38,505 bases of DNA, taken from contig JAQVYA010000011.1 in NCBI GenBank assembly GCA_028708865.1, positions 1-38,505 of the forward strand, given 5' to 3'. Below are positions 563-6,415 of the stretch, one piece after another (position 1 is the stretch's first letter; each line of letters begins with the position of its first letter). The DNA comes from Desulfovibrio sp. (GTDB lineage Bacteria; Desulfobacterota; Desulfovibrionia; Desulfovibrionales; Desulfovibrionaceae). The notes under the pieces were generated by a model. The model was not told the DNA's origin. It made no database searches and saw only the letters and a list, made by a program, of their open reading frames with translations. A program made the position numbers and the translations under genes.

Positions 563-970
563 TTAGTCCGGCCTGCGGGGTATGACCTGATCCATGACCT
601 CCAAAAGCTCTTCCAGCTCCACGGGCTTGGAAAGATATCCGCTCATGCCTTCGGCCAGGAATGTTTCCCGGTCTCCAAGCATGGCGTGGGCCGTCAGGGC
701 GATGATGGGTATTTCCGCCTGGTTCCGGAATTCCTCATCGCTGCGGATATGCCGGGTGGTTTCCAGCCCGTCCATGCGCGGCATGCGAATATCCATGAGC
801 ACCACGTCATAGGTGTTGCTCCGCAGCATTTCCAGGGCCTGGGCTCCGTCCATAACCGCATCCACCTCATGCCCGTAATGCTGCAACAGTTTGCGGATGG
901 TCAGACTGTTCACGTCGTCGTCTTCCGCCAGAAGCACCTTGAATTTCCTGTCGTCCATCATCTTCTCCAT
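563..970 (-). CDS. Stand-alone CheY-like response regulator receiver protein
   Basis: Canonical receiver: LLAEDDD, VVLMDIRMPRMDG (phospho-Asp), ALTAH, LSKP; starts about 6 bp after the kinase stop. Confidence 0.9.
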   Translation of the reverse strand: MEKMMDDRKFKVLLAEDDDVNSLTIRKLLQHYGHEVDAVMDGAQALEMLRSNTYDVVLMDIRMPRMDGLETTRHIRSDEEFRNQAEIPIIALTAHAMLGDRETFLAEGMSGYLSKPVELEELLEVMDQVIPRRPD

Positions 971-976
971 TACGGG

Positions 977-3121
977 CTATGTATTTTCGAACAGCAGGGA
1001 GCAGAACACTTCCGTGCCCTGATCCTCCTGGCTGGCGATGCACAGGCTCCCGCCCAGCAGGCGAACCAGCCGCACCACGATGGCCAGCCCGAGCCCGGCC
1101 CCTTCGTAATGCCGTCGGTAAGCCACCTCGCCGGGCACAAACGTGTCCAGCAGGTTGCGAATCGCCTCGGAGGACATGCCCTGGCCGCTGTCTCCAACAA
1201 TCAACAACACACGGGTCCGCCCTGGCGGGGCGTACGGCAATGCGTGCGCGGCCAGGCGCACGGAACCGCCCGGCGGCGTGAACTTCACGGCGTTGCCCGC
1301 CAAGTTGGTGAGCAGTTGCCGGACCCGCGCCCCATCGCCCCTGAGCCGCGGCGGAAGGTTGGAATCCGTCTGCACGATGAAATCCAGCTCCGAATCCGTG
1401 GCCGTGGGCTCAAACAACTCCTGCACCGAACGGAGCACTCCCTGGGGAGAGAATTCACCGTCCTCCAGCCGCACGCGGCCCGACTCCAAAAGGGTCAGGT
1501 GTAGAATATCGCCCAAAAGCCGGGAAAGTCGTCGAGTGGCCCCCAGGGCCTTGTCCACATATTCCTCCTGAGGCGCGTCCAATCCCGTGGTCTGCAATAG
1601 CTGAAGTATGCCCTGGATGCCGTTGAGAGGCGTGCGGATTTCGTGGCTCATGTTGGCCAGGAACTCACTTTTGGCGGCACTGGCCGCCTCAGCCGCCTCC
1701 TTGGCCCGAATCAACTCCTGCTCCGCCCGTTTGCCTTCCGTGATGTTTTCCACCAAGGAAAGCACGGAAACCAAGGCGCCGTCAGCGTCCCGCAGGGCGG
1801 AATTGTACCAGCGGCAAAACAGCACCTCCCCGGTTTTGGCATAATTACGGTTCTCACTCACGGTCTGGTTCCGAGCGCCGCGTTGCAGGTCCAAAGCGCC
1901 CCGCTGCACCAAATCCCGGTCCGCCTCAGGCACAAAGCTCCATTCTTCGGAGCGTTTGCCCAGGACCTCGGATTCGCTCCAGCCAAAAATCTCCTCTGCC
2001 CGGGGCGACCACCCCCGTACCTGGCCGTGGCTGTCCCATTCCACCACGGCCAGCGGGGTATTGTGCACGTGGAATGTGAGGCGCTCCAATGCGCCGCGCA
2101 ATTGTTCGCCCTGTTCCCGCAGGCTTTGCTCCGCTTCCTTAAGCCGTTCATAGTCCCGCCGGATGGTCACGGTCTGCCGGCGAACCGTGCCCCGCAGGGA
2201 GCGCAACAACAGCCAAAAAACAACCCCGCCAACCAGCACAAAAAGAAACGCGGCCCAAAGCAGGGTCACGCCCCGTTCCGTCAGATGCACGTAGCCCGAC
2301 CCCTGGTAGACCCACTCCCGAAACAACTCCTTGTGCCGGGCCCGGGGGATGTGTGCCACGGCCTTGGAAACAATGTTGAAGAGCATGTCGTCGGAACGGG
2401 ACGTGGCCGCGGAAAGATAGTTCATGTATCCGCTTTCCCCGGCAATATGCAGATTGGCCAACCCCTGGCTTTCAATGAGGTACGAGGCATAGGCCTGATT
2501 CACGATCATGGCGTCGCACTGGCCCGTGGAAACCGCGCGCAGGCCTTCAAGGTTGTCCTTGGTTGGAGCGATATCGATATTGGGATAGCGATCCTGCAAA
2601 TACTCATTGACCGCATATCCCCGAACCGTGCACACGGTCCTGCCGCCCAGGTCGTCCATGCTGCCCACGGAAGAGGAATCCCGAGTCACAATGACATAGG
2701 GCACTTTGATGAATGGTTCGGTGAACCGCAAAAACTTGCGGCGTTCCGCGGTCTCGGCAATGCCGACGATCAAAAAGCCGCCGTTGTCGCGGGAATAGGA
2801 CATGAGCAAATCCCACGAATCGAACATGTGGAACCGCACGTCCAGCCCCATATTGCGTTCGATCTCCCGGAAATAATCAACCAAAAGCCCCACGTACTGA
2901 CCGTTGGAATCAGTATAGGCGTTGGGCGGAGCCTGGTATCCAAACAGGACTTCCACGTTGCGGCCATGGCGGCGCAGCCAGTCCCGCTCCTCGGCGCTGA
3001 ACTCCGGATGCGTGTCCTGCAACCCTAAAAAGAGTACCAGCAAAAGCCCCGCCGTCAGCAGCGAGATCAGAAGAACAAACAGTTTGAGGCGGTTCATGGT
3101 ACCGGACAAAACGCGCTCCAC
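977..3121 (-). CDS. Sensor histidine kinase: periplasmic SBP_bac_3 domain, TM, PAS, HisKA, HATPase_c (BvgS/EvgS-like)
   Basis: N-terminal TM then an SBP-like domain ([10 protein letters not shown]...[26 protein letters not shown]), second TM, PAS, H-box [17 protein letters not shown]-box [28 protein letters not shown]. Confidence 0.92.
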
Positions 3122-3269: not shown

Positions 3270-4064
3270 TTACGAATTCAGCTTAGCCGCCCGGACCAGG
3301 GCCCGGAAAAGTTCCTGCTGCCGCCACTTGTGCGGCAAAAACTCCGGGTGCCACTGTACGCCCACCAGCCAACGTCCGCCCACGTGTTCCAAAGCCTGGA
3401 CCACGCCCCCGTATTCCCGGGCCGTAACCCGCAGGTCCTGCCCCAGGCGGTCCACGGCCTGATGATGCAACGCGTTGACGCGCACCCGGCCGACCCCGAA
3501 CAGCGAGTGTAGGATGGAGCCGGGCTCCACCAGCACGGGCTTGCGCGGCAGCAGGGTGCGCAGGTCGGGCCGTTCTTCCTGAAGAGAGGCCAGGTCCTGA
3601 TGCAGACTCCCGCCCAGGCACACATTGATGAACTGCATGCCCCGGCAGATGCCCAAAACCGGCAGTCCCTGCTCCAGGGCATGGCCCAGCAACCGCTCTT
3701 CCAGGGCGTCCCGGGCCGGGTCCGGGCCGGGCGAAGCGCCCAGGCTAAAGAGCTTGCGCAGGATGTGGATGAAAGGAAACAGCAACAGGCCCAGCAGGTA
3801 GTGCCCGGGCCAATGTTTTTCTGGTTGCAGCTCCCGCCTGAGCTCCGCCACGGACTGGCCGTACCGGCCCGGGTCCACGTCGGCCCCGCCCCCGAGCACC
3901 AGCGCCTGGACCGCGGGCAACTGCCCGCCCTTGCCCCTGGGGCTGCGGGGCCGGATGCGCAGGGGACGCCCTCCGGCACGCCAAACCGCCAAGGCCGCAA
4001 AAACCCAGGAAACCCAACCGCCCCGATCCGGACCGCTGACGCCCACCACAGGGCGCCTACTCAT
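3270..4064 (-). CDS. Class I glutamine amidotransferase-like / gamma-glutamyl hydrolase (peptidase C26, PuuD-like)
   Basis: VLGGGADVDPGRYG, LGICRGMQFINVCLGGSLHQDL (nucleophile Cys), HHQAVD, GVQWHPEF; start MSRRPVVGVSGPDRGG overlaps the upstream stop. Confidence 0.85.
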   Translation of the reverse strand: MSRRPVVGVSGPDRGGWVSWVFAALAVWRAGGRPLRIRPRSPRGKGGQLPAVQALVLGGGADVDPGRYGQSVAELRRELQPEKHWPGHYLLGLLLFPFIHILRKLFSLGASPGPDPARDALEERLLGHALEQGLPVLGICRGMQFINVCLGGSLHQDLASLQEERPDLRTLLPRKPVLVEPGSILHSLFGVGRVRVNALHHQAVDRLGQDLRVTAREYGGVVQALEHVGGRWLVGVQWHPEFLPHKWRQQELFRALVRAAKLNS

Positions 4065-5058
4065 GGGCAACCCCCCGGATCCACTGCTCGGAAATGGCCA
4101 CCCAGGATTCCTCCAACCGACGCAGCGGCGAAGACACATAGTCCAGATATTCCATTCCCATGGATGCCCGCGCCTCATGGTCCGCGGCCATGGCCTCCAC
4201 GCGCAGCCACTGCTCCCATTCATGCCCCACGCGCCAGTCCGGCTCGTCCACGAGGCAGTTGGGCAACCTGTAGTGAAAGGCCGGGCGCGGCTTGAGCAGC
4301 TCTTGCTCCACCCCTCCGGCCAGCACCCGCTCCCGGTCCAGATGGGCCAGCAGCGGCAACATATCCAGGGACCGGTTGCGCGTGGCATTGTGGGCCAGGT
4401 AGTCGTGAATCCATTCCGCGTGATCCCGGGGCGCATACCCGGGGTCGGCCACAAGCCTTACGTATGCCTGGGGGAACCCATTGATGTACGGGGAAAGCAC
4501 CCGACTGATGTCCACCTGCCCCTGACGGCGCAGCCAGTCCTCCATGAGCACAAAAGCCTGCATGTAGGCTGTGAGCGTATCCACATCCAAGGCCGGCGGC
4601 TCCACATTGATGTGCAGGCCAAAGGCATGCAGCAGGGAAGTGCGCGTTCCCTTGGCCTTGGCCTGCTGCAATGCGGCCCGCAGCCGCTCCACCGGCTCCA
4701 TGCGGGTCATTTCCAGGGGCGGCAGCACGATTTCGCAGGGCACCAGCCCGGCCGAAGCGCGGGCCAGAAATTCGTCAACGTCCCGCACCAGGCGGGGGGA
4801 GGCTTCCAGGCCGATGGCCTGAAGGTACTTCAAATACGAACGCTCTTTGAGGGCTATGGCGTCATACTCAATGTTGATTGTTCCGACTTCAGAATCTTTG
4901 ATAATATACGCGAACCTGTTGACTTCATGTATTGCTCCGCCAAGGGTTGCCTGAACCACGTCACAGGCTTCCCGAATGCCAAGCCCGGCGAATTCCAGTT
5001 CATAGCCTACCTTACGCACGGCATTGTCCGCATTGGTTCGCTGTTTCGGCAAGCGCAC
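4057..5058 (-). CDS. Putative amidoligase (GS-like COOH-NH2 ligase, Amidoligase_2 family)
   Basis: VGYELEFAGLGI...INIEYDAI...LHAFGLHINVEPPALDVDTLTAYMQAFVLMEDWLRR; GTG start at 5058 preceded by ggggagg SD; a longer ORF with GTG start at 5145 is possible; 8-bp overlap (ATGAGTAG) with the amidotransferase gene. Confidence 0.72.
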   Translation of the reverse strand: MRLPKQRTNADNAVRKVGYELEFAGLGIREACDVVQATLGGAIHEVNRFAYIIKDSEVGTINIEYDAIALKERSYLKYLQAIGLEASPRLVRDVDEFLARASAGLVPCEIVLPPLEMTRMEPVERLRAALQQAKAKGTRTSLLHAFGLHINVEPPALDVDTLTAYMQAFVLMEDWLRRQGQVDISRVLSPYINGFPQAYVRLVADPGYAPRDHAEWIHDYLAHNATRNRSLDMLPLLAHLDRERVLAGGVEQELLKPRPAFHYRLPNCLVDEPDWRVGHEWEQWLRVEAMAADHEARASMGMEYLDYVSSPLRRLEESWVAISEQWIRGVAHE

Positions 5059-5195
5059 GACGTTTTTTCCTCCCCTGGCCTGTCCGGCCCAAGGGCCGCG
5101 ACCAAACCGCGCGAAAACGGCTTCAAAAAAACAAGACAGCGGCACCGGGACCCATGCCCCGTGCGCCGCCGTCCAACAAAAACATAGCCTGCAAT

Positions 5196-5747
5196 CTACT
5201 TAAAGGATCGGGCAAACAGGTCCTCAATGGCCTTTTTGCCGTTCGCCTCCAGGAACCGGGTGCCCATGCCCGAAAAATGGGCATGACTGATTACCGGATT
5301 TTCCACCTCGGCCCATTGATCCTTATCCCAGCGGAACCACTGGTCCCGGGCCTGGCCGAACACGAACAGCGGCTTATTGCAGATTTTGGCGTATTCCGCG
5401 CCCCAGCCGGTGCCGCCCTTGACCGTGCCGTCCTCCTGGATGGTGCCTACCACAAACACCTCGTGCCCGGCTTCCACCTGGTACATGATGGTCTGCAACA
5501 CCTTGCGCATGAGCTTGGCATTGGTGAACTTGCGGTGCAGCAGCCGGGAAACGTAGGAAAGGCTCACGTCCTTACGCACCAACTCTTCCTGGGTGAGCAC
5601 GCGCAACCCGCGCGAACGCTCGATCTTATGGCCTTCGAACGTGAAATTCACTTCCTCGACGCCGTATTTTTCGGCCAGCCGGCCGAACTCGGCTTCCGCG
5701 CCCTGGGCGCCGCCGCTGAAAAGCGTGCTGGTCATGGCTTGGGTCAT
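5196..5747 (-). CDS. Conserved hypothetical protein, probable SLOG/YpsA-like Rossmann nucleotide-binding protein
   Basis: SGGAQGAEAEFGRLAEKYG and GGTGWGAEYAKICNKPLFVFGQ glycine-rich motifs; start at 5747 preceded by aaggag SD. Confidence 0.6.
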   Translation of the reverse strand: MTQAMTSTLFSGGAQGAEAEFGRLAEKYGVEEVNFTFEGHKIERSRGLRVLTQEELVRKDVSLSYVSRLLHRKFTNAKLMRKVLQTIMYQVEAGHEVFVVGTIQEDGTVKGGTGWGAEYAKICNKPLFVFGQARDQWFRWDKDQWAEVENPVISHAHFSGMGTRFLEANGKKAIEDLFARSFK

Positions 5748-6106: not shown

Positions 6107-6415
6107 CTATTCCCGGTCCGAACGGTTCCTGGCCCGGCCCTCGGCAAAAAGCCGCTCCCAGTCCAGCGGCACCAGGCTGCGGCGGTTGCGCTCCTGCAAC
6201 ACGGCCCAGGCCATGTCCGGGATGACCCGCACCAGGATGCTGTTCACATACTGCTTGCCCCGCGCCTCCGGGTCCATGCCGCAACATTTACAGGAAAATC
6301 CGCAAATATCGCAAGTACATCCTCCGGTCTTGACCATCTCCTTGAGGATGCCCGCCTTGTCGCAACAGGCGTCGCACAGCCGCAATCGCGCGCTTGGCGT
6401 GGATTTCATGCTCAT
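6107..6415 (-). CDS. Cysteine-rich hypothetical protein (possible metal/Fe-S binding)
   Basis: MSMKSTPSARLRLCDACCDKAGILKEMVKTGGCTCDICGFSCKCCGMDPEARGKQYVNSILVRVIPDMAW; 9 Cys in about 35 residues; start uncertain (ORF extends to 6511). Confidence 0.6.
   Translation of the reverse strand: MSMKSTPSARLRLCDACCDKAGILKEMVKTGGCTCDICGFSCKCCGMDPEARGKQYVNSILVRVIPDMAWAVLQERNRRSLVPLDWERLFAEGRARNRSDRE

Follow-up and report, generated by a model that had tools for sequence, protein, structure and literature searches.

An amidoligase gene and a C26-family gene form a two-gene module in Desulfovibrio sp. and other bacteria, with a proposed role in making and breaking an amide at the membrane

The window (the whole stretch of DNA that was analysed, 38,505 nucleotides of contig JAQVYA010000011.1 from Desulfovibrio sp., assembly GCA_028708865.1) includes three minus-strand ORFs that an earlier note had read as one operon, encoding a SLOG-like nucleotide-binding protein, a glutamine synthetase (GS)-fold amidoligase and a PuuD/C26-type amidotransferase or hydrolase. 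All three ORFs are present, with the boundaries that the note had assigned to them. The features considered here are the following:

563-970, minus strand (as the pair): response regulator, downstream of the pair
977-3121, minus strand (as the pair): long sensor-kinase-like ORF with an N-terminal solute-binding-like region, downstream of the pair
3270..4064, minus strand: C26 / class I glutamine amidotransferase (GAT)-fold protein, 264 aa, ATG at 4064, stop at 3270
3717..3857, minus strand: insert of the C26 protein, residues 70-116, a ~35-residue basic-flanked hydrophobic element proposed to bind membrane
C26 residues 87-107, minus strand: hydrophobic helix in the insert, GHYLLGLLLFPFIHILRKLFS, modelled as one helix
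4057..4064, minus strand: overlap of the amidoligase stop with the C26 start, 8 bases, ATGAGTAG
4057..5058, minus strand: Amidoligase_2 (PF12224) protein, 333 aa, GTG at 5058, stop at 4057
5196..5747, minus strand: plausible SLOG/DprA-like protein, ORF 5747..5196, 183 aa, ATG start

The 8-bp overlap between the amidoligase and C26 genes was confirmed by the sequence itself (ATGAGTAG, 4064..4057), and both family calls made for these genes held in Pfam searches. The 4057..5058 product matches Amidoligase_2 over residues 15-285 (E=1.9e-55; 188.9 bits, cut-off 22) and the 3270..4064 product matches Peptidase_C26 (E=4.1e-45; 154.7 bits, cut-off 20.5). After a gap of 148 bases downstream of the C26 gene, two signalling ORFs follow on the same strand (563-3121); by neighbourhood clustering, the kinases that adjoin the pair are not one conserved family. 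Upstream of the SLOG gene, a Cys-rich ORF of ~100 aa (6107-6412) contains the motifs CDACCDK and CTCDICGFSCKCCG, and Pfam and NCBIfam scans of this ORF gave no match. A reading of the locus as a defence system was dropped upon obtaining zero matches with PADLOC.

The amidoligase and C26 genes constitute a genuine two-gene module. In 75 of 79 loci the C26 gene directly follows the amidoligase gene in the same orientation, and two of the four remaining loci run off the end of the available sequence. The two genes overlap in 58 of 75 related loci, the commonest overlaps being of 4 or 14 bases. We also searched separately with the C26 protein (close relatives, E<1e-30) in 101 Desulfovibrionales genomes. 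Co-occurrence was perfect: 17 genomes carry both genes and 84 carry neither (Fisher p=1.3e-19, with genomes taken as independent and kinship uncorrected). Since one genome (G034) keeps both genes although they are ~242 kb apart, the link is functional and not a matter of synteny alone. The tight coupling of the pair that had been proposed, and the association of this amidoligase class with class I GAT-like proteins, are thus borne out by these counts.

The pair is patchily distributed across phyla, including Pseudomonadota, Balneolota, Thermodesulfobacteriota, Bdellovibrionota, Myxococcota, Bacteroidota and others. In an even gammaproteobacterial sample, the partner was found at every locus of the window subfamily with enough sequence, the exception being a second, divergent copy in genome G662. 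Some alphaproteobacterial plasmids carry the amidoligase alone, without a C26 partner, so the pairing rule is not universal in the wider family. One such lone amidoligase, on Azospirillum plasmid p2 (locus L258, 5049-9559), overlaps a response regulator and a histidine kinase, and a DedA gene is located ~3 kb downstream of it. A further conserved partner within the Desulfovibrionales was sought by clustering 13-kb neighbourhoods, which yielded the amidoligase-C26 pair alone; the remaining clusters that genomes had in common were accounted for by antisense shadows of the pair, by synteny within one genus (e.g., alpha-amylase-type genes) or by generic histidine kinases. The best 80 named loci with the pair come mostly from bacteria of marine, saline or soda-lake settings (Thioalkalivibrio, Balneolales, Salinisphaera and Wenzhouxiangella among them), a tally made without a control set that we take as a lead towards a role in salt adaptation. 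A literature search for a link between amidoligases and osmolytes found nothing relevant.

The SLOG gene had been proposed as a member of the operon, a claim that failed the adjacency check. It was found in 74 of the 101 Desulfovibrionales genomes, 58 of which lack the amidoligase. In the 16 genomes carrying both genes, these are adjacent in two (G000 and G002, of a single genus); in a third member of that genus (G001) they are on separate contigs, and in the complete genomes G054 and G069 they lie far apart. No SLOG relative was found in 79 amidoligase loci of more distant lineages. In the window, the SLOG stop and the amidoligase start are separated by 137 bases, which differs from the overlapping amidoligase/C26 junction. 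The low adjacency, together with the zero count in the distant loci, led us to reject a three-gene SLOG operon, and we judge the gene to be a bystander neighbour outside the module. A three-gene system that draws a nucleotide-derived cofactor or signal from the SLOG protein is, with these counts and the intergenic gap against it, extremely improbable, even if the window and one congener have the gene adjacent and co-directional and its family call is plausible. This call comes from a match of residues 5-133 to PHROG 768 (DprA-like; E=3.5e-7); the Pfam match, to YAcAr (E 0.033), is below the cut-off of that family. In most of the 74 genomes the protein is 61-90% identical, and inspection of 30 loci did not reveal a conserved neighbour. 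It is a conserved orphan gene.

The amidoligase was then considered at the level of its residues and predicted fold. In an alignment of 59 relatives, R15, G18, E20, E22, D66, P107, E109, N151, R186, RNR 227-229, D232, RP 258-259 and HYRLP 262-266 are invariant, and E64 and E153 nearly so. E20, E22, D66, N151, R186, R258 and R264 are candidate active-site residues. The AlphaFold2 model (pLDDT 93.7) has YbdK, a GCS2-type glutamate-cysteine ligase, and glutamine synthetases as its best PDB fold matches, followed by plant glutamate-cysteine ligase (GCL). These matches agree with the GS-like fold that had been suggested at borderline strength, being weak (E ~0.025 or weaker, TM 0.34), and identity to YbdK is ~10%. 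A search by sequence found no solved (PDB) relative. A phage origin was also considered and dropped, the amidoligase being without a phage match. From the family match and the model, the protein is predicted to be a GS-fold, ATP-dependent amide ligase.

A different Amidoligase_2 subfamily, whose amidoligase barely matches the profile of the window subfamily, occurs in a conserved cassette at five loci (L191, L209, L210, L211 and L218, ~2-7 kb each). The cassette comprises the amidoligase, a ~173-aa protein (with a DUF5049 domain in the single one scanned), a class II glutamine amidotransferase (GATase_6), an AIG2-like gamma-glutamyl cyclotransferase and an AAA ATPase; some of these cassettes are close to genes for a serine recombinase or HsdM.

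The C26 protein retains an invariant Cys-His-Glu triad (C140, H239, E241). In profile searches against solved proteins it matches lin1909 (1.7e-46), SpuA (5.7e-33) and PuuD (1e-31), the match to a GMP synthase subunit (6.6e-12) being far below these hydrolases. By fold, too, its model (pLDDT 87.7) is nearest to lin1909, PuuD and SpuA, with every amidotransferase domain ranking behind them. A score of 75.4 bits against the NCBIfam PuuD equivalog PRK11366, below the cut-off of 266, shows that the protein is not PuuD proper. As its closest relatives are lin1909, SpuA and PuuD and not amidotransferase domains, the evidence favours a hydrolase over an ammonia-supplying subunit, and we predict an amide hydrolase of the PuuD/SpuA/lin1909 branch.

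The C26 protein of the window has 47 residues between its Y68-G69 and R118-D119 motifs, compared with 11-13 in the short form of the family. Of 113 homologous loci, 83 have the long version of this segment and the other 30 the short one (11-13 residues); the insert is missing from an unrelated C26 protein of genome G007. Its core consensus is RRLLxLLFPLxWLLRRL, basic-flanked, with the F/Y-P and R-R positions conserved. With a median of ~13 residues, the uninterrupted apolar run of the helix would hardly suffice for a full span, which makes a transmembrane helix less likely than a monotopic anchor or an interface; the element could also mediate protein-protein contacts instead of membrane binding. 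We propose that most C26 partners are membrane-associated through this predicted helix.

A gene for a VTT-domain (YqaA/DedA-like) protein is found near the pair in 16 of the 30 short-form loci versus 1 of the 83 long-form loci. In most of these loci it lies directly after the C26 gene, an arrangement often seen in gammaproteobacteria with the short form, and it frequently overlaps the C26 stop or starts within a few bases of it. When 36 immediate downstream neighbours were scanned with Pfam, VTT_dom was the sole widely recurrent family (11 of 36), the next being GlnE with three, all from one genus. The window genome has no VTT gene next to the pair, and in one long-form locus (L207) a larger DedA-type protein is encoded directly upstream. 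The idea that insert and VTT protein are interchangeable was set aside in spite of Fisher p values down to 2e-10: the long and short forms split on a single branch of the amidoligase tree (one gain or loss), with ~8 changes of VTT state, and since the insert changed once, the exclusion amounts to one evolutionary event and its p-value is not evidence.

Taking these data together, we propose a membrane-associated two-gene module that makes and breaks an amide, probably gamma-glutamyl, on an amine, a reading to which we assign a probability of about 0.45. We infer its activity, substrates and location as follows. The GS-fold amidoligase would spend ATP in coupling an amine to a carboxyl group, the likeliest being the gamma-carboxyl of glutamate. 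By means of its Cys-His-Glu triad, the C26 partner would later cleave this amide or a product derived from it. The C26 helix, or in other lineages the DedA/VTT protein of the same operon, would place the reaction at the membrane, for which reason the amine may be a lipid or a compound that is lipid-linked or transported. In favour of the make-and-break reading we count the adjacency in 75 of 79 loci, the co-occurrence (17 of 17 versus 0 of 84), the invariant residues and the hydrolase-like relatives, and also the YbdK, GS and plant GCL folds, the hydrophobic insert and the VTT neighbours. Against it stands the weak fold match of the amidoligase model (E 0.025, TM 0.34). Against the membrane part stand the ~13-residue apolar run, which falls short of a normal transmembrane span, and the inverse relation of insert and VTT gene, which is one event and not repeated independent evidence. 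A more specific version, in which the ligase glutamylates or acylates a lipid or lipid-linked amine, a bilayer-dipping C26 protein removes the group and a DedA/VTT protein of some lineages carries the lipid across the membrane, is unlikely.

The C26-type protein could also be a glutaminase that feeds ammonia to the ligase, the amidoligase then making a primary amide on a carboxylate. We regard this pairing with a true glutamine amidotransferase as rather unlikely: the class I GAT fold, the intact triad, the translational coupling and the perfect co-occurrence would suit subunits of one enzyme, but the nearest C26 relatives are stand-alone gamma-glutamyl hydrolases, GMP and CTP synthase domains score far lower, and the two genes are unlinked in G034. 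GS-fold enzymes, moreover, normally work without a GAT subunit, using amines or free ammonia. A role in tagging, in which proteins receive an amino acid or peptide from the amidoligase and lose it again to the C26 protein as a de-tagging peptidase, would agree with a class-level prediction reportedly made by Iyer et al. in 2009 for some GS-like and ATP-grasp ligases. Neither a small tag gene nor a proteasome-like or other peptidase recurs beside the pair, and we consider tagging very unlikely. Distinctly unlikely, too, is the detoxification of environmental amines through gamma-glutamylanilide-like products, with a hydrolase that prevents their build-up. The patchy spread of the pair would fit, and ligase-plus-hydrolase systems are reported to handle aniline and related amines by gamma-glutamylation (PMC11335346, PMC4539516); however, no oxygenase or catabolic gene recurs near the pair, many carriers are strict anaerobes, and the amidoligase belongs to a different GS-fold family.

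The preferred reading, an amide made and broken by the two proteins, has a parallel in E. coli, in which the GS-fold ligase PuuA and the C26 hydrolase PuuD make and cleave gamma-glutamyl-putrescine. The likeness extends to the combination of enzymes and to PuuD, which ranks among the three solved proteins most closely related to the C26 protein. PuuA, in contrast to the window amidoligase, is a GS relative of the canonical GlnA type; the pair has no Puu oxidase or dehydrogenase alongside it, and PuuD lacks the hydrophobic insert when aligned with the other C26 proteins. SpuA of Pseudomonas aeruginosa shares the C26 fold and triad but belongs to spermidine/polyamine catabolism, and we know of no amidoligase partner for it.

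The earlier note had presented the locus as its candidate for an undescribed system, which does not hold for the pair as such. The Pfam entry for Amidoligase_2 is reported to note a conserved neighbourhood with a GAT-like thiol peptidase, and Iyer et al. (2009, Mol BioSyst 5:1636) are said to have predicted Amidoligase_2 (PF12224) proteins with such a neighbour, that is, the same ligase family and partner class as described here. That work is not known to include the hydrophobic insert, a VTT/DedA partner or a co-occurrence test. It is cited in later papers, PMC12096838 among them. RefSeq-derived annotation also identifies the two adjacent genes by name, as in Dinoroseobacter shibae (DSHI_RS19780/19775). 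Our literature search found no paper characterising the pair, and a search of open-access literature found no Amidoligase_2 protein with an experimentally assigned substrate. The exact co-occurrence, the insert and the VTT operon look new.

Amidoligase_2 proteins are annotated in many genomes. The C26 partnership, the hydrophobic helix and the DedA/VTT neighbour narrow the search for their substrates to membrane or lipid-linked amines. A lipid amide cycle, if true, would add a new type of membrane modification and might hint at the substrates of DedA-type proteins.
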